Positions 1 to 7,827 of a DNA stretch of 64,000 nucleotides are shown one piece after another. The position numbers and the translations under genes are program-made. The notes under the pieces are model-generated. The model had not been told where the DNA came from, made no database searches, and saw only the letters and a list, made by a program, of their open reading frames with translations. Each line of letters begins with the position of its first letter. Positions within the stretch are counted from its first letter, which is position 1. Origin of the DNA: Aliiroseovarius zhejiangensis (GTDB lineage: Bacteria > Pseudomonadota > Alphaproteobacteria > Rhodobacterales > Rhodobacteraceae); the NCBI RefSeq assembly GCF_014656375.1, contig NZ_BNCH01000004.1:1-64000 (forward strand), given 5' to 3'.

Positions 1-62
1 GTTGCGCTCAGAGTGACATTTCTGCTTTGCGAACCAGGTGACATTTCTACTTGGTTGCAACA
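1..62. mobile_element. Possible tip of an IS21-like insertion sequence (rest lies left of the window)
   Basis: Two exact copies of GTGACATTTCT lie at 13-23 and 38-48, 25 bp apart. The block ends at 53-62 with GGTTGCAACA, whose reverse complement begins with TGTTG. Tandem internal copies of a short motif next to a TGT...ACA terminus are typical of IS21-family ends. No transposase gene is inside the window, so this is an inference from the end alone. If correct, the reading frame of the neighbouring recombinase runs into IS sequence after position 63. Confidence 0.4.
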
Positions 63-2115
63 CGTTTTCGTTAACCCTTCGTATTTCACAAACTTGACTA
101 TCTTCCGACAAGTCGACTATCAAATGCTCGCACAAGCTCTCATCGCCGCCGCAACTGAAGCAACTGAGCGTATGAGGGCAAGGCTCTACCGCCCAGTTCA
201 TGCGACAGATACCGTGCGGCATAGGATTATAAAATTGAACAGCCGAAGCCAGATATTCGGAAGCTTCCTCTGGTGTGTCTTTGGAAAGACGGCTAAAGGT
301 TTCCGCCACGTGTCCAACCAGTTTTCCCTTGGACATTGCTGTCTCCAGCCGATCGCGACGGGTCTCCACGCTTGTTTGACTGTAAATTGAATTCCCGGAA
401 ACAGACTTTCGATTGAACAATGTTGCGATCTGGGTCTGTGTCAGACCGCCATTTTCGTAGGCCGTGTTAAGCCAATGCCTGAAATCGTGATGAGTGAACT
501 CGGCAATCGAACCGGTGCGCGGATCGACTATTCCAAGACGCGCACAGAGGCTATCAGTCGGTTTCCCGGTGCCCCGATCTCGCTTATATCCGGAAAGCCA
601 ATGAGCAAAGCTTGATCCGGTGACCCGAGTGACCACTTCCATATTTGCTGCAATGTGGTGAGATAGCTGATCCTTGAATACAACCATGAGGGCCTCATGC
701 ATATGCAGAAACACCTTACCAGTATGACGGCACTGCAAAATCGCAGTGTCATATATGTATTTACTTTCTATTTCCGGATTCTCTATTGGGGGTGCAAATG
801 GCTTCTGATGAACCATCATCACACGAGCTTCTTTAACAAGCTCCGAGATCACGGAATACGCATGGCCGGTAATGCTCTTATAGCCTATGCAGGATGCGAG
901 CCCTGAAACAGACGGAAACCGAACATCAGTATCGAACGATCGTTGTGCCTGTAAGTTCTTCCCGCCAAGATATACTCGGCCTTGTCGGGAGGAAATAAGC
1001 TGCTCACAAAGCAACGCGACCGACCTTCGATCTATTCCCATTTCACGAGATATGGCCGATACATTCCCATTATGCCGCCTAAAAATCTCGCCCAGAGGAA
1101 GCCATTGGGAGGGGCCACCTCTTGGAGTGAAGAACACTTCCTCTGTGTCAATTAAACGATTGAATGGATGTGTGATCCAGTCGGCCAACCAGCGGCGAAC
1201 AAAATACTTAATGTCCTCCTCGTCACCACCGGAGATCACAGCCTCCCAGGAAATCTCCTTAGCTTTATAGAGTTCTCGTGCACGCTGCCGAGCGGGCTCT
1301 GTCACGGCCAAAAGATATGCGATCGCGTCCCTGGCAATTTTCTCCAACTCTGGGGGAACGATGCGTGGAACAATCTTCCCGCCTTTTGCTGCAAAACACC
1401 GAATAATGAGTGCATCACCTTCATCAACCAAGCAATCCCGTGGCAGGGTCAACATTTCCTCCACTCGAAATCCGGTGCAAACTGATACGGCTATCGCTGC
1501 AAGGAAAAACTGGTCTCTTTCCGACATTTCACTGGCATGACGAGCGGCGAGTAGTTGCTGAACAACCTCGTCAGGAAGAAGTTTTTGTCGTCGCCCTGCC
1601 TCAGTTCCACCACGACCGAAAATCGGGTTCGCTTTATGCTTTTGGAAATAAGATATCCTGAGGGAAGTATTCTTAGTCAGCCAGCGTCCGAACACAGCAA
1701 GCGTAGTGCAACGACGATGCGCAGTTCCAGTCGAAAATGTCTCAAAAGTTTTTTTCTCGACCCAATAAAAATCTTCCGAATTAAGACTCTCGACGGATCT
1801 GGCGGCTGGCATCTCCCCGAGCACAACCAACATCTCCCACGCCGCTCTAATACTTTGTGGCCCCACTCCCTTTTCTACCAATAAGTAGATACAGTATATT
1901 TTTGCTATGCCTCGAATACCCAGGTGGCTGATAGCGTCGAAGTTAATAGTATATTTCTTTACCGAGGCCAGCCTGTGAAGCGGAGCGATATTCCAATTAT
2001 TAGAATTGAAGTCTAACCAATTTGGCGCGGCATTGATGTAACCAGAAATCACCTCCGAAAACTGTGGTTGCTGTGCTTCTGGGATGAGCCGGTCCACAAT
2101 TTCTTTAGGCCTCAT
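1..2115 (-). CDS. Large tyrosine recombinase, third gene of a recombinase trio (3' end outside window or truncated)
   Basis: The frame is open without a stop from the ATG to the window edge (705 codons visible). Tyrosine-recombinase landmarks are present: a box I arginine in CTGFRVEEML (R217), the HxxRH motif HDFRH (H543, R546) and the nucleophile in NSIYSQTS (Y578). The distance from R217 to H543 is about 326 residues, against about 124 in the two sister genes, so the catalytic domain carries an insertion of roughly 200 residues. A Cys/His cluster follows (C637, C646, C652, C655, C662, H664) and resembles a zinc-binding tail. The start overlaps the end of the preceding recombinase by 11 bp, implying one transcript. 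Base composition is clearly lower in G+C than the core genes. The size order (412, 507, >700 residues) resembles the ginABC recombinases of GInt islands; RIT elements are the other candidate. The last 20 or so codons may belong to an inserted IS end. Confidence 0.8.
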   Translation of the reverse strand, partial: MRPKEIVDRLIPEAQQPQFSEVISGYINAAPNWLDFNSNNWNIAPLHRLASVKKYTINFDAISHLGIRGIAKIYCIYLLVEKGVGPQSIRAAWEMLVVLGEMPAARSVESLNSEDFYWVEKKTFETFSTGTAHRRCTTLAVFGRWLTKNTSLRISYFQKHKANPIFGRGGTEAGRRQKLLPDEVVQQLLAARHASEMSERDQFFLAAIAVSVCTGFRVEEMLTLPRDCLVDEGDALIIRCFAAKGGKIVPRIVPPELEKIARDAIAYLLAVTEPARQRARELYKAKEISWEAVISGGDEEDIKYFVRRWLADWITHPFNRLIDTEEVFFTPRGGPSQWLPLGEIFRRHNGNVSAISREMGIDRRSVALLCEQLISSRQGRVYLGGKNLQAQRSFDTDVRFPSVSGLASCIGYKSITGHAYSVISELVKEARVMMVHQKPFAPPIENPEIESKYIYDTAILQCRHTGKVFLHMHEALMVVFKDQLSHHIAANMEVVTRVTGSSFAHWLSGYKRDRGTGKPTDSLCARLGIVDPRTGSIAEFTHHDFRHWLNTAYENGGLTQTQIATLFNRKSVSGNSIYSQTSVETRRDRLETAMSKGKLVGHVAETFSRLSKDTPEEASEYLASAVQFYNPMPHGICRMNWAVEPCPHTLSCFSCGGDESLCEHLIVDLSEDSQVCEIRRVNENVLQPSRNVTWFAKQKCHSERN

Positions 2116-3628
2116 CAATTTTACCAACATTTTTAATTTGATCTATGACTTCGCGAACACCCACTGCGGCCCTATCAAAGTCTTTCATGACTTTAGAGCG
2201 CCCATTCGGGAATTCTGCTGTCCTCCAATGCTCATACTCCTCCTGCAAGTAATCCAAAACTGAGTGATGATCAGCACTTCGGAATGCCAGGAAGTGTTCA
2301 CAAGTGTAGCAACTGAACAGAGGATGTTTGCCACAGGCGTCTTTACTTCCGCATTCGCCGACAATAGCAGGAGCTTTACCCTTCGGGACAAAAATCGGCT
2401 GGCCCACAGAGAGTTGGCCATCAACAATCTTCCCTGAAAACCATGCATCTCGCAGCGCAGAGAAACGTCCTCCCAGATTCCGATCCATCTTCTCGAAGAC
2501 AGGAATGAACTCCACTCCAACAGCGTCGATATAATAACGCGCACTACTCTCGATATCGTGCTGCAAAACATCGGCGATCAGCTGCAAAGAATACCCCTGC
2601 ATAGCCATATGGGTGGCACCGGTATGTCTAATACGACGAAGACTCACACTAAGAAGATCACCGGTCCGGGGACTTTTCACCCCAATCGATGCAACCCAAT
2701 TCTGAACACATGCTTTCGCAAGAGCGCCGTAGGCCTTTCGGACTTCAATCCGATCACCCTCCTTCCTGCGGGTTACGTAGGGAAGAAGAACTTCCTGTCG
2801 TAGGCTTGACCCAAGTATCTCTGGGCGAGCTCTGTAGGCTTCAATATCGGCGACAAGCTCGGTGGAAATTGTCTCCCAACGCCCCCCCCGGGCGGCTTGG
2901 CCCTTGCCTAAGGGAATGCGAACCTCGGCGGTCTCGCCAAAGCGCGTCTTATGTCGGCGCAGACCATCTCCTGCAATTTCCAACAACTGCGATGGGCGTC
3001 TTAGAGTATTCAACGTCAGACGTGTGAATACTCTTGCAAAATGAGTCTCTATGTTTTCATTTTCAGCAGGGCTCAAATGCCGACGTAGAACTTCGATCTC
3101 CGCCGACGTCATGGCTCCCGCGTGAGGGTCCCACTCCAAAATAGACTTTCCACTTTCAAGCCGTCTGTTGGCGCCCCATGATTGTATTTCGGACGCCAGA
3201 ACCTGGCCTTGGCGCGGATCGATCTCTTCCAACACCATACAGATCAGCGTTCTGAAATGCGGTCGGTAACTTGGTCGAAGAGAGGTCCAAAGGGTCTTGA
3301 GAGCCCTGTAATTGAGGAGATTTGACTTTGTTAGGGGTGGCAAACTCGCCTCGAGGCAACAAAGATGACGGAGAAGCAGATCATATTGCCGCAGAATTGA
3401 AGGCGCCTTGCGCCGCATCAACACCCTAAGTGCACTTTCGAAATATGGTTTCACTTCACGAGGGAACCTCTTTGGCCAAACCAGACGGTGCTCACGATTC
3501 AAGTGTTCTGCCGACCACTGCCATTCGGTGACGCGAATATATGTGGGTTTGTCCGGTCTAAATTCGTTCTTTAGAAACCGCACGCCGGCTCGATCAAGCC
3601 AGAACCCCGATGTAGGGTCATACTTCAT
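2105..3628 (-). CDS. Tyrosine recombinase/integrase, second gene of the trio
   Basis: This is a 507-residue phage-integrase-family protein. Box I is in NTLRRPSQLLE (R210/R211). Box II is LRRIRHTGATHM, where the usual HxxRH histidine is replaced by R331 while R334 and H335 remain. Then come H357 in the LQHD motif and the candidate nucleophile Y365 or Y366 in SSARYYIDAV. The C-terminal 80 residues hold a CxxxxxC...C..C cluster (C426, C432, C440, C443 with H435), the same kind of putative zinc tail seen in the third recombinase. It starts inside the stop codon of the upstream recombinase (ATGA overlap), so translation is probably coupled. In multi-recombinase elements each subunit is thought to be needed in the synaptic complex. 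The loss of the box II histidine may make this subunit partly structural, which is inference. Confidence 0.85.
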   Translation of the reverse strand: MKYDPTSGFWLDRAGVRFLKNEFRPDKPTYIRVTEWQWSAEHLNREHRLVWPKRFPREVKPYFESALRVLMRRKAPSILRQYDLLLRHLCCLEASLPPLTKSNLLNYRALKTLWTSLRPSYRPHFRTLICMVLEEIDPRQGQVLASEIQSWGANRRLESGKSILEWDPHAGAMTSAEIEVLRRHLSPAENENIETHFARVFTRLTLNTLRRPSQLLEIAGDGLRRHKTRFGETAEVRIPLGKGQAARGGRWETISTELVADIEAYRARPEILGSSLRQEVLLPYVTRRKEGDRIEVRKAYGALAKACVQNWVASIGVKSPRTGDLLSVSLRRIRHTGATHMAMQGYSLQLIADVLQHDIESSARYYIDAVGVEFIPVFEKMDRNLGGRFSALRDAWFSGKIVDGQLSVGQPIFVPKGKAPAIVGECGSKDACGKHPLFSCYTCEHFLAFRSADHHSVLDYLQEEYEHWRTAEFPNGRSKVMKDFDRAAVGVREVIDQIKNVGKIDEA

Positions 3629-4863
3629 GGGAAGTCCGCCAAAGGCTCAATGTCTTGTCTCCAAGCCGCCAAACCACTTCTCGCGCGCTCTTGGCGTGTC
3701 CGTCGGGAATATATGGCCAAGCTTTTAGGGTCGCTCCAGCCTCCCCAATAAACCAGATCGTCCACCCTTACAGCTTTGACTGAAGGATCGTCGATCATAT
3801 CGGCCGCTGCATAAGCGCGGTTGAAAAAGGCGTGGCGACCGAGATGCCAAGTGAACTGGGCCCCGACTTCCTCCGATATGCTTCTTGCCAAACCGAAAGC
3901 TGAGGACCTCGGGAGAGGCGCTCCACTGCAACTAACCAGAAGATAATTGTGACCGAGAACCGGCCGCCGCGATTTTCGACCGTTTGCGCCTCGGACGTTC
4001 CGGACCCGATGATTGAACTGATAATCGGCTATCAGTCGAGGGACTGGGCTATTCGAGAGGATCGGCGCAAGTTCTCGAGACAAAGTCTTAGGTCGAGGTG
4101 CTAAGCGGCCCCGGGGGTCCGGCGGACCGTCGCGCTCTTCAATGCGAACGACGCGGATCGTGGGATCTGAGCGTGTCGGACAGTCTTGAAGGCGAAGGGC
4201 GAGGATCTCGCCGAGACGGAACCCGAATTCAATCGTGAGCCGCCATATCAAGTATGCTCTGACCCATCGCGGTTCAGGCTTTTCCCGTTCCGCCGCGTTC
4301 TTCAGAAAGGTATCAATTGCTTTGACAGTATCATCGTCCAAATCTGGAGCGATGTCGTCATGAACACGCCTTTTCTTAACATTTTGCCATTCCCTCTTAG
4401 AGGTCGTGAGTGCAGCGTCAACGATGGACGCACGCGGCAACTCATATCCTCTACCGTCGCAGAACGTCTCGATGAACCAACGGACCATAGCCTCTGCGGC
4501 CCGGATACGCCCATTGAAGGTGTCAACTTGCTTTCGGCGTAGCGCCATATCCCCGCGTTGCATGCACTCTTGGAGCCAGTTTGCGAAGTTTTCAATTTCC
4601 CGCCTGTCGAGCGGTTTGCCCTGGATCAAGCGCGCGTCCAAATTAAACCCTGTCTCCAGAGACCAGGAGACGAGCGCTTGCGCCCCCCGCATCACATTCT
4701 CAAATGTGTTGGGAGATTGGTATCGATAGCAGGCTGAGGCCTCGTAGAGGGCCCCCGAGATAGACGGCGCAAACGTTTCTCTGTCAACGATCATGGCTCG
4801 GATTTCGCCACTCTCCCCCTCAAAGAAGTTTAGCGAAGCACGATATGTTTGCGTTCTTGCCAC
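3625..4863 (-). CDS. Tyrosine recombinase/integrase, first gene of the trio
   Basis: This 412-residue protein has an intact tyrosine-recombinase active site: R216 in EFGFRLGEIL, H340 and R343 in WHLGRH, W376 in the GGWSD motif that replaces the usual histidine, and nucleophile Y385 in LAIYSRRT. An N-terminal SAM-like core-binding region occupies roughly residues 50-140. It is the promoter-proximal gene of three recombinases overlapping by 4 and 11 bp. Upstream lies a gene-free stretch of about 700 bp with repeated GGTGC motifs, the likely recombination and promoter region. The base composition is unlike that of the flanking nrdJ gene, consistent with horizontal acquisition. Candidate families are GInt (GinA), RIT (RitA) and Tn554-like TnpA; sequence comparison would be needed to choose among them. 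Confidence 0.88.
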   Translation of the reverse strand: MARTQTYRASLNFFEGESGEIRAMIVDRETFAPSISGALYEASACYRYQSPNTFENVMRGAQALVSWSLETGFNLDARLIQGKPLDRREIENFANWLQECMQRGDMALRRKQVDTFNGRIRAAEAMVRWFIETFCDGRGYELPRASIVDAALTTSKREWQNVKKRRVHDDIAPDLDDDTVKAIDTFLKNAAEREKPEPRWVRAYLIWRLTIEFGFRLGEILALRLQDCPTRSDPTIRVVRIEERDGPPDPRGRLAPRPKTLSRELAPILSNSPVPRLIADYQFNHRVRNVRGANGRKSRRPVLGHNYLLVSCSGAPLPRSSAFGLARSISEEVGAQFTWHLGRHAFFNRAYAAADMIDDPSVKAVRVDDLVYWGGWSDPKSLAIYSRRTRQERARSGLAAWRQDIEPLADFP

Positions 4864-4888: not shown

Positions 4889-5084
4889 GCACCTCCCCGG
4901 AAAATGGGTGCGCATACTTCTCGTTTAGGGACGGTAAATCAGATATGCACCTTAATTTCCGATGGGGTGCAGATCCAAACGAATGGAAGCCTGTAAAAAA
5001 ACGTCTAAAATTAATAGGTTAGATAGAAGATTTGAGCGTTGCAGATGGGCCACAATACTCAAATTCCTTGATGGGGTGCAGATC
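4889..5084. repeat. Array of GGTGC-type sites, possible recombinase core sites
   Basis: GCACC at 4889-4893 faces GGTGC at 4907-4911 (13-bp spacer). GCACC at 4947-4951 faces GGTGC at 4966-4970 (14-bp spacer). The second GGTGC belongs to GATGGGGTGCAGATC (4961-4975), repeated exactly at 5070-5084. Paired inverted arm sites around a short spacer are how tyrosine-recombinase core sites are built. The array sits directly upstream of the first recombinase gene, where an attachment site and promoter would be expected. Function is inferred from position and symmetry only. Confidence 0.5.
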
Positions 5085-5309
5085 TAATCTGCGGCCTAAA
5101 CCGGATATTTTAGTTTAATATCAGTTTGTTATCTAAATACACTGCTGGAGTATTGAGCTTTTCTCCAATTCCTCCATGGATACAACTCAACTGTCCGTTC
5201 TCCGGAGGGAAATGAATAACCGCGCCAAGCGAGACGCAAACCCTCACGCGATCGCGTTGGTCATTTTTTCTTACATTACTAAGGATCGACATCTATCGCC
5301 TGAAAGGCC

Positions 5310-5360
5310 GCAGGCCCGATACGGTTGCGCTGTATGAAGGCTACACCGCATCGGGCCTGC
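5310..5360. repeat. 15-bp inverted repeat with 21-nt loop
   Basis: The left arm GCAGGCCCGATACGG (5310-5324) and the right arm CCGCATCGGGCCTGC (5346-5360) are complementary except for one position. There is no T-tract, so it is not an obvious terminator. It may be an island-end structure. A short frame without a start codon, ending with TGA at 5402-5404, also crosses it and could be a gene remnant. Confidence 0.45.
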
Positions 5361-5485
5361 TACCCGTGCGCTCAAAAGCGATAGTTTTGAGTGCCGAACG
5401 TTGAGAAATTAGTGTTTGGCCTTACGAGCCGCGAAAACATCGTCGAACAGATTCCTCCAAAACGCCAGAGGTCGATGATAGGCCC

Positions 5486-5523
5486 TTCACGAGGGTGCAA
5501 TCTGGCTGATTACCCCTCGTGAA
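5486..5523. repeat. Perfect 10-bp inverted repeat downstream of nrdJ
   Basis: TTCACGAGGG (5486-5495) pairs perfectly with CCCTCGTGAA (5514-5523) across an 18-nt loop. It begins about 45 bp beyond the nrdJ stop codon in the direction of nrdJ transcription, so it could end that transcript. It lacks the run of U expected for an intrinsic terminator. Its left arm also runs into GGTGC, the motif repeated near the recombinase genes. Confidence 0.4.
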
Positions 5524-5568: not shown

Positions 5569-7827
5569 CTAACCACTACACTTCGAATGCCCGCAAGACG
5601 CGCAGGTCATGCAGCCTTCGATCATGCGCATGTCGTATTGGCCGCAGCTTGGGCAGGCGGGACCGCGCGGGGCGTTGCCCAGGTTGATGACCTCGGCTTG
5701 TGGGTCGGTTTTCAGGCCCATACCTTCGCCTTCAAGGAAGCCCGTGGCAACCATGTGGCGTTCGATGACCCCGCCGATGGCCGCGAGGATTGAGGGGATG
5801 TATTTCCCTTCCATCCACGCCCCACCGCGCGGGTCAAAGACAGCTTTCAACTCCTCCACCACGAAGCTCACATCGCCACCGCGCCGGAATACGGCCGAGA
5901 TCATGCGGGTCAGCGCGACAGTCCACGCAAAATGCTCCATGTTCTTCGAGTTGATGAACACCTCGAACGGGCGGCGGTGGCCGTTCAGAACCAGATCGTT
6001 CACGGTGATATAGATCGCATGTTCGCTGTCGGGCCATTTGACCTTGTAGGTATGGCCTTCCAGCGATTGCGGGCGGTCCAGCGGCTCTGAGATATAGACG
6101 ACATCTGCACCGCTATCGGCCTCGGGCGCCTTTTCGCTGTCCTCGGACACGGACAGGACGGACCCTGTGACCTCGTTCGGGCGGTAGGTCGTGCAGCCTT
6201 TGCAGCCGCTGTCCCAGGCCTCCATGTAAACGTCCTTGAACGCCTCGAAACTGATATCGTCGGGGCAGTTGATGGTCTTGGAAATCGAACTGTCGATCCA
6301 TTTCTGGGCCGCCGCCTGCATCTTCACATGATCCAGTGGTGCCAGCGTCTGTGCGTTCACGAAGTAATCGGGCAACTCCTTGTCACCAAACTTGTCGCGC
6401 CACATCTGGACGGCGTAATCCACAACCTCTTCTTCCGTGCGCGAGCCGTCTTTTTGCAACACCTTGCGGGTATAGGCATAGGCGAACACCGGTTCGATGC
6501 CTGACGACACGTTGCCCGCATACAGGCTGATCGTGCCGGTGGGCGCGATCGAGGTCAGCAGCGCGTTGCGGATGCCATGTTCGCGGATCGCGTCGCGCAC
6601 ATCCTCGTCCATATGGGTGAGCGAGCCGGAGGCCAGATATTTCTCGGCATGAAACAGCGGGAACGGCCCCTTCTCTTTCGCAAGCTCCACTGACGCCAGA
6701 TAGGCCGCCCGCGCGATCTGCTTCATCCAAGCCTCGGTCTGGGCGGCGGCTTCGTCCGAGCCATAGCGCAAACCCATCATCAACAGCGCATCCGCCAGCC
6801 CGGTCACGCCGAGGCCGATGCGGCGTTTCGCTTGAGCTTCCTGCCGTTGCGCCTCCAGCGGGAAGCGGCTGGCGTCCACCACATTGTCCATCATGCGCAC
6901 CGCTGTCGCGACCAGCTCGGTCAGTGCCTCGCCATCCAGATGGGCAGCATCTTCGAACGGATCGGCAACCAGTCGTGCAAGGTTGATCGAGCCAAGAAGG
7001 CACGCGCCATAGGGTGGCAAGGGCTGTTCGCCGCAGGGGTTCGTCGCGGCGATCGTTTCGCAATAGGCCAGGTTGTTCATCTGGTTGATGCGGTCGATGA
7101 AGATCACGCCCGGCTCGGCGTAATCATAGGTCGCCTTCATGATCTTGTTCCAAAGATCGCGTGCCTCGACCGTGTGATAGATCGTATCGTCGAATTTCAG
7201 ATCCCAGCTTGCGTCGTCCTTCACGGCCTGCATGAAATCATCGGTGACCAGCACCGACATGTTGAACATGCGTAGACGGGCAGCATCGGATTTGGCGGTG
7301 ATGAAATCTTCGATGTCGGGGTGGTCACACCGCATGGTCGCCATCATCGCGCCCCGCCGTGAACCTGCCGACATAATCGTGCGGCACATCGCGTCCCACA
7401 CATCCATGAATGAAAGCGGACCAGAGGCATCCGCCGCCACGCCCTTCACATCCGCGCCGCGTGGCCGGATGGTCGAGAAATCATAGCCGATCCCGCCGCC
7501 CTGCTGCATGGTCAACGCGGCCTCTTTCAACATGTCGAAAATGCCGCCCATGCTGTCGGGGATCGTGCCCATGACGAAACAGTTGAACAGGGTCACGGAA
7601 CGACCCGTCCCGGCGCCTGCGGTGATGCGGCCTGCGGGAAGAAACTTGAAATCTTCCAGTGCGTCATAGAAAGCGTTTTCCTGCTCCGGCTCGGCCTCGG
7701 ACAGGGCGCGGGCGACGCGGCGCCAAGTATCCTCGACCGTCTTGTCCTCGGCCGTCCCATCGGCCTGTTTCAGCCGGTATTTCATATCCCAGATTTGTTC
7801 GGCGATGGGGGCAGCAAAACGGCTCAT
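5569..7827 (-). CDS. nrdJ: Adenosylcobalamin-dependent ribonucleoside-diphosphate reductase (class II)
   Basis: It reduces ribonucleotides to deoxyribonucleotides with a B12-generated radical and needs no oxygen and no separate radical subunit. The 752-residue protein shows C83 in FNCFVMG, the glycine-rich GGGIGYDFS segment near 110-118, and the active-site loop NPCGEQPL at 263-270 (N263, C265, E267). The C-terminus has CPSC...CASC...C cysteines for zinc binding and redox regeneration. Length and motifs match the long alphaproteobacterial NrdJ. It is monocistronic and divergent from the DUF1489 gene across a short gap. No cobalamin riboswitch was seen upstream. It is the first core gene next to the recombinase island. 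Confidence 0.96.
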   Translation of the reverse strand: MSRFAAPIAEQIWDMKYRLKQADGTAEDKTVEDTWRRVARALSEAEPEQENAFYDALEDFKFLPAGRITAGAGTGRSVTLFNCFVMGTIPDSMGGIFDMLKEAALTMQQGGGIGYDFSTIRPRGADVKGVAADASGPLSFMDVWDAMCRTIMSAGSRRGAMMATMRCDHPDIEDFITAKSDAARLRMFNMSVLVTDDFMQAVKDDASWDLKFDDTIYHTVEARDLWNKIMKATYDYAEPGVIFIDRINQMNNLAYCETIAATNPCGEQPLPPYGACLLGSINLARLVADPFEDAAHLDGEALTELVATAVRMMDNVVDASRFPLEAQRQEAQAKRRIGLGVTGLADALLMMGLRYGSDEAAAQTEAWMKQIARAAYLASVELAKEKGPFPLFHAEKYLASGSLTHMDEDVRDAIREHGIRNALLTSIAPTGTISLYAGNVSSGIEPVFAYAYTRKVLQKDGSRTEEEVVDYAVQMWRDKFGDKELPDYFVNAQTLAPLDHVKMQAAAQKWIDSSISKTINCPDDISFEAFKDVYMEAWDSGCKGCTTYRPNEVTGSVLSVSEDSEKAPEADSGADVVYISEPLDRPQSLEGHTYKVKWPDSEHAIYITVNDLVLNGHRRPFEVFINSKNMEHFAWTVALTRMISAVFRRGGDVSFVVEELKAVFDPRGGAWMEGKYIPSILAAIGGVIERHMVATGFLEGEGMGLKTDPQAEVINLGNAPRGPACPSCGQYDMRMIEGCMTCASCGHSKCSG

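Follow-up and report, generated by a model that had tools for sequence, protein, structure and literature searches.

A probable GInt island behind nrdJ in Aliiroseovarius zhejiangensis, with an insertion sequence in its third recombinase gene

The stretch of DNA analysed here (the window) comprises the opening 64 kb of contig C4 in the genome of Aliiroseovarius zhejiangensis, which is 3.42 Mb in size and assembled in 19 contigs. At its left end lie three overlapping open reading frames, all on the minus strand, named here ginA, ginB and ginC for their likeness to the recombinase operon of GInt islands, and nrdJ adjoins ginA upstream in the same direction (Table 1). An earlier note on this DNA, made from the sequence alone, had described three overlapping genes for large tyrosine recombinases of 412, 507 and at least 684 residues, and this description stands. 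The ginA and ginB genes overlap by 4 bp, and ginB and ginC overlap by the 11 bp that had been reported if ginC starts at 2115. The ginC frame is open from 2130 to position 1 and still open at the contig edge, giving 710 codons from the ATG at 2130 and 705 from the ATG at 2115; its last 20 codons or so are insertion sequence (IS) DNA and lie outside the recombinase, and the figure of at least 684 is what the 2115 start leaves once the IS end (window 1-62) is subtracted. All three proteins have the box I Arg, the box II Arg and the Tyr, GinB does carry Arg where the box II His would be, and the Cys-rich tails noticed in two of the proteins correspond to invariant Cys columns in six-row alignments of GinB and GinC. 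The Pfam family Phage_integrase matches GinA, GinB and GinC, each below the curated cut-off (E 6.6e-4, 6.8e-5 and 5.7e-5, respectively). By its GC content the gin region is foreign, with 49-54% across the gin genes and about 60% over most of the window.

Table 1. Features at the left end of the window and at the distal border of the island (window positions unless a contig is named).
Feature	Position	Strand	Remarks
IS end, contig boundary	1..62	-	IS present in four copies, counted by its ends
Left copy of the 6-bp IS target duplication, AAAACG	63..68	.	right copy on C13
ginC, main part	63..2130	-	start 2130 or 2115; catalytic residues complete; IS-interrupted
ginB	2105..3628	-	507 aa tyrosine recombinase; Arg at box II His position; Cys-rich tail
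ginA	3625..4863	-	412 aa tyrosine recombinase, GTG start
18-bp direct repeat GATGGGGTGCAGATCYAA, two copies 109 bp apart	4961-4978, 5070-5087 (span 4961..5087)	+	upstream of ginA
Remnant resembling an IS21-family end	5307..5397	-	plasmid matches
Perfect 10-bp inverted repeat TTCACGAGGG, terminator-like	5486..5523	.	between attL and ginA
attL	5569..5589	-	host CATTCGAAGTG then island TAGTGGTTAG
nrdJ (B12-dependent ribonucleotide reductase), integration target	5569..7827	-	open reading frame; homologues
attR	contig C13		ATACACTAC AAGTG then host CGGGTGATC

The interruption of the third gene by an IS at the contig edge had been missed by the earlier note. Window 1-62 recurs at three other contig ends of the same genome, with one weak partial match inside C9, and among the contig ends there are four IS termini of the window-edge type and four of the opposite type. 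Pairing of their flanks gives identical 6-bp duplications in three of the four pairs, namely AAAACG for C4/C13, CGCCCT for C1/C2 and TATACA for C6/C8, and the matching AAAACG identifies the end of contig C13 as the partner of the window edge. On C13 a single frame continues after the IS for 40 codons, and its stop codon overlaps the beginning of a 165-codon gene. We rejected the idea that the third gene is merely long, since its extra end is IS sequence. When contigs were scanned with the whole GinC protein, only the last 19-25 residues were matched, in four Rhodobacterales contigs, and these are related IS ends; the protein beside a related IS terminus in locus L012 has helix-turn-helix (HTH) domains only. 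The 6-mers at C7 (GGACTG) and C9 (TTGATG) differ, which suggests a rearrangement between IS copies.

Contig C13 is 21,586 bp long and carries, in the direction of the operon, the ginC tail, directly followed by ginD (185-682, 165 codons), then about 20 kb of cargo, and attR near the other end. The cargo, the fourth small gene and the far end that the earlier note had hoped to reach by extending the assembly leftwards are thus all on this contig. Coordinate arithmetic gives an island of about 26.7 kb, not counting the unassembled body of the IS. A finding at a contig edge in this way becomes a whole island with both borders, a target, a cargo and a likely reason for immobility.

The target is the end of nrdJ, which is 88-97% identical to its same-genus homologues except for one second copy at 80%. 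Its last codons are island-derived and read HSKCSG* versus HSKCG* in most same-genus relatives. The left break between host and island sequence is CATTCGAAGTG / TAGTGGTTAG and the right one ATACACTACAAGTG / CGGGTGATC, and the borders hold short imperfect direct repeats with the core AAGTG inside CATTCGAAGTG / CACTACAAGTG. In the predicted circle junction, TATACACTAC-AAGTG-TAGTGGTTAG, the inverted arms CACTA and TAGTG would flank a 6-nt spacer, CAAGTG, in agreement with the 6-nt staggered cuts reported in the consulted parts of the GInt literature. The outer flanks of the nrdJ side and the C13 side, once joined, align through the junction in four of 20 same-genus nrdJ loci (L029, L028, L025 and L040; 444-468 bp at 80-87%), and at the other 16 the match stops at about the end of nrdJ. 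The distal sequence of C13 directly follows nrdJ in some same-genus genomes. The island boundary to be looked for on extension is present at both ends. In two other genera of the same family (L117 and L119) ginABC lies right behind nrdJ, with the break at identical bases, and nrdJ there ends in HSKCSG* and FSKCQ*, respectively. Gene ends of ribonucleotide reductase and ssb are GInt targets in the published accounts, as far as these were available; our search of literature listings found none that names nrdJ.

A whole-genome search with the GinC alignment hit 7 of the 394 genomes from the family and 20 of the 398 from the phylum, the source genome being counted in both, and among 101 close relatives the source genome alone had a match to the third protein, with no second one elsewhere in it. 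Loci were fetched from 20 of the 25 other matching genomes (those left out are G627, G821, G1013, G1053 and G1109), and at 19 of these 20 the genes stand in the order ginA-ginB-ginC, which excludes chance as an explanation of the trio. All three proteins find counterparts, over most of their length and at 29-35% identity, in an operon of Pseudomonas putida (L018). Against an Escherichia coli operon at the end of ssb (L020), blastp gave E values of 3e-10 for GinA, 1e-20 for GinB and 2e-12 for GinC; that operon has matches in 20 of 5426 E. coli genomes, and ssb precedes it on each of the three chromosomes examined. Counterparts of the three were found as well in a P. aeruginosa operon behind ssb (L022). 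By a reading of the translations, the gene before ginA is ssb in seven of the other fetched operons (L118, L121, L123, L124, L128, L129 and L131), and elsewhere it is a ribonucleotide reductase (L125), GMP synthase (L134), endonuclease III (L135) or permease gene (L132); in the remaining operons no gene end could be assigned clearly. The position of ginABC behind the guaA-like gene of L134 and the endonuclease III gene of L135 suggests further gene-end targets.

In trees of GinA (25 rows), GinB (25 rows) and GinC (23/26 rows), which the earlier note had proposed to build, the element groups with L117 (and with L119 where it is present), and then with L018 and L122. This group of five rows (four for GinC) is supported at 100/99 to 100/100, and many deeper forks are weak. 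By these trees the element belongs to a supported group of nrdJ-end GInts. GinA had no match in 50,697 phage records, and a phage origin was rejected on this ground. It matched four of 72,556 plasmid records, namely the P. putida trio, a Pseudorhodobacter record (L155), a Burkholderia record (L156) and one Paraburkholderia record, and an origin from a single integrase was rejected on these matches. The Burkholderia operon lies behind ssb, with its second and third genes annotated in pieces. On the Pseudorhodobacter turbinis replicon, positions 6941-8146 of L155 hold an orphan ginA-like gene, apparently a relic, near which no ginB or ginC was found.

The rule for a GInt in the consulted part of PMC10121019 asks for homology to GInt integrases, three integrases and a short gene. 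Homology, judged against the L020 operon, was found, and so were the ginABC order and sizes of GInts (about 400, 500 and 650-720 codons), ginD, a site-specific insertion with its empty site, and cargo. The likeness to GInts, or the Tn6571 family, as far as the available parts of Bardaji et al. 2017 (PMC5385486) and PMC10121019 describe them, lies in the order and sizes of four overlapping genes, a conserved gene-end target, short imperfect att repeats and a large cargo with defence genes. The element differs from published GInts in its nrdJ target, in the IS within ginC, in a GinC insertion that exceeds that of most aligned rows by about 100 residues, and in a full GinC catalytic set, which is described as lacking in the literature. 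We conclude, with a probability of roughly 0.9, that the window contains the left end of a GInt of the size given above, inserted at the 3' end of nrdJ, which would be excised as a circle by the Gin proteins with rebuilding of the nrdJ end, and that this copy is probably immobile. Where the earlier note had left a choice between a GInt-type island and an undescribed branch, the operon, ginD, cargo, kind of target and att sites favour the former: the element is a further GInt with a known operon type, and with it come an nrdJ-end group and a proposed correction concerning GinC. It adds such a group in the alphaproteobacteria, where one published survey reports no GInts and another reports some, in the parts of them consulted.

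Several points count against this conclusion. The type GInt of P. stutzeri DSM 4166 lay outside the direct comparison. GinD matches no family and resembles other GinD proteins only weakly (E 1.3e-4 with that of L018). The link between C4 and C13 consists of IS ends, a 6-bp match, a reading frame and an empty site, with no assembled sequence across it, and the leftover pair of IS ends, C9/C7, has no duplication (TTGATG, GGACTG). The AT-rich 3' end of published GInts is not clear here, the last 500 bp having 45% AT versus about 40% in the host part of the window.

Three overlapping tyrosine recombinase genes are also the mark of RIT elements (Recombinases In Trio), which are short and cargo-free, end in terminal inverted repeats and, according to the available part of PMC3414803, are common in alpha- and betaproteobacteria. 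Their proteins, however, are of 315-410 aa and the element is of about 3.5 kb in that source, compared with 412, 507 and at least 684 codons here, and the fourth gene, the 20 kb of cargo and the gene-end target set the present element apart from the published description. That it is a RIT is extremely improbable, and membership was rejected on size and structure. Tn554-type elements, as portrayed in parts of PMC10214605 and PMC3414803, combine an ordinary recombinase, a large one and a small helper, with 6-bp events reported. By this description they have two recombinases (TnpA and a large TnpB) plus TnpC, versus three recombinases here, and membership was rejected too. The poor fit to RIT and Tn554 seen by the earlier note is hence borne out.

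Another candidate is a strand-biased circularizing element (SE), with the operon intA-tfp-intB-srap, in an alphaproteobacterium. The SE of Idola et al. 2023 (PMC10214605, consulted in part) has a collinear four-gene operon with a large recombinase in third place. We compared profiles using as the SE yardstick the proteins of pSEA1 (SE-6945) and of four further plasmids, with five rows for each gene; L143, in which the second gene is split in two, was left out. GinA scored 99.1% with IntA; GinC scored 85.4% with IntB (83 columns, box I region only), 35.9% with IntA and 5.3% with Tfp; GinB scored 95.6% with IntA, 74.8% with Tfp and 13.8% with IntB; and GinD scored 20.2% with Srap, its best but a weak one. 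These figures indicate that the third positions, GinC and IntB, correspond better than does the published likening of GinC to Tfp, and the GinB-Tfp result is ambiguous because IntA scores above Tfp. The two operons are thus collinear, but GinB keeps the Lys, box II Arg and Tyr, most of a catalytic set that is absent in Tfp, and the large insertion of GinC lies after box I; IntB lacks such an insertion, its long region being the one that precedes box I. The operons that came closest are of the ginABCD type, and SEs are published only from Gammaproteobacteria in the parts consulted. We consider it very unlikely that the element is an SE, and rejected membership on the GinB catalytic residues and the position of the GinC insertion.

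The second finding concerns the GInt protein GinC itself, which is described in print as without catalytic residues and, in the consulted part of Idola et al. 2023 (PMC10214605), as without the RHRY motif and the catalytic tyrosine. Residues were counted only where letters are present, as L119 (at a contig end), L132 and L136 are partial, and the counts take in the short L124 and L130 (the latter with an internal stop), which are outside the 21/26-row alignment; the rows do not extend to the type GinC of P. stutzeri DSM 4166. All 24 rows with letters at these places have the box I Arg and the Lys after it, all 24 have the box II His and Arg, and all 25 have the Tyr; R222, K249, H548, R551, H552, R574 and Y583 (numbered from the 2130 start) are invariant in the 21-row alignment. 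The GinC proteins of the ssb-end operons of E. coli and P. aeruginosa have the full set. Of 23 rows, 22 have 35 residues from His to Tyr and the remaining one has 34. From the box I Arg, R222, to the box II His, H548, there are 326 residues in the window's GinC, so the large insertion that the earlier note placed in this catalytic domain is real; it is not peculiar to this protein, with 161-325 residues in the 22 other rows. Spacing in the nrdJ-end group is 316-326, about 100 residues above most rows.

The GinC profile matches the archaeal Xer recombinase 4a8e in two pieces and in the correct order, with the Arg, Lys, HxxR and Tyr facing the same residues, which in Xer proteins are catalytic. 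Between the pieces there are 176 profile positions versus 41 Xer residues, and the E value is 6.3e-7 for the whole sequence and just 0.05 and 0.04 for the single pieces. In a fold model of GinC (mean pLDDT 72.8, pTM 0.57) K249 falls between two strands and a helix begins at H548/R551. Foldseek matched the model to XerH and to an integron integrase at E values of 9e-5 to 8e-4, and the root-mean-square deviations were poor. The model lends mild support to the recombinase reading. All 25 GinB rows lack the box II His, and five of them lack the box I Arg; among the 25 GinA rows, three lack the box II His. Taken together, we lean towards a view in which GinC is a complete tyrosine recombinase, with an insertion after the hairpin Lys and ahead of box II that splits its catalytic domain, and the counterpart of SE IntB, while GinB would take the place of Tfp as a degenerate partner. 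GInts and SEs might then form a single collinear superfamily in which labour is divided in the same way. This proposed correction bears on how the three recombinases divide the strand cuts.

The steps of movement are inferred, being drawn from the studied GInt. GinA, GinB, GinC and GinD would act jointly on the short core-type inverted arms (CACTA and TAGTG), the sites would be cut with a short stagger, and the island would leave as a circle, which could integrate at the corresponding sequence in the nrdJ end. The island would then supply replacement codons for the end of nrdJ and leave the enzyme nearly unchanged. In this scheme GinC would be a working recombinase, with its split catalytic domain, and GinB a partner with a degenerate box II. 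The present copy is probably stuck, because the IS removes about 40 C-terminal residues of GinC and parts ginD from the operon. Perhaps the island is still mobile, if a GinC without its tail works or if the IS is occasionally lost: the IS lies beyond every conserved catalytic position of GinC, and the frames of ginA, ginB and ginD are open. Nevertheless, the lost tail corresponds to a stretch present in five other aligned GinC proteins, the source genome offers no other GinC to replace it, and in the studied GInt the loss of any gin gene abolished detectable circles, according to the consulted part of PMC5385486. Continued mobility is thus unlikely, and we keep to an immobile GInt.

Ten C13 proteins were scanned to annotate the cargo. 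One is an MmeI-type IIG restriction enzyme-methyltransferase (PADLOC, E 7e-265), two match MkoB (2e-72) and MkoA (8e-185), which we take to be parts of Mokosh, and one matches a PDC-S06 ATPase (8e-170). The others include a DEAD-box helicase, a T5orf172/MUG113 protein, a PIN_12 protein and an HTH protein; GinD and a 208-codon protein had no match in these scans. The cargo of C13 (L148) is an anti-phage gene cluster, in which the helicase, T5orf172 and PIN proteins lie between the defence genes. Defence genes on GInts have been published for E. coli (PMC10121019, in the part available), and this island is a further case of a GInt with several anti-phage genes.

The distance from attL to ginA is 706 bp, compared with 191 and 228 bp at two other loci. 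Within it, the 90-bp stretch 5307-5397 matches 13 Rhodobacterales plasmid records, in one of which, examined, it stands just beyond istB of an IS21-family element. From this position it looks like the remnant of an IS21 end, and it may help to explain the longer distance. A stem comparable to that of the terminator-like inverted repeat was seen by eye at the equivalent place in L117 and L119. The pair of 18-bp direct repeats upstream of ginA is possibly a site for a regulator or a recombinase.

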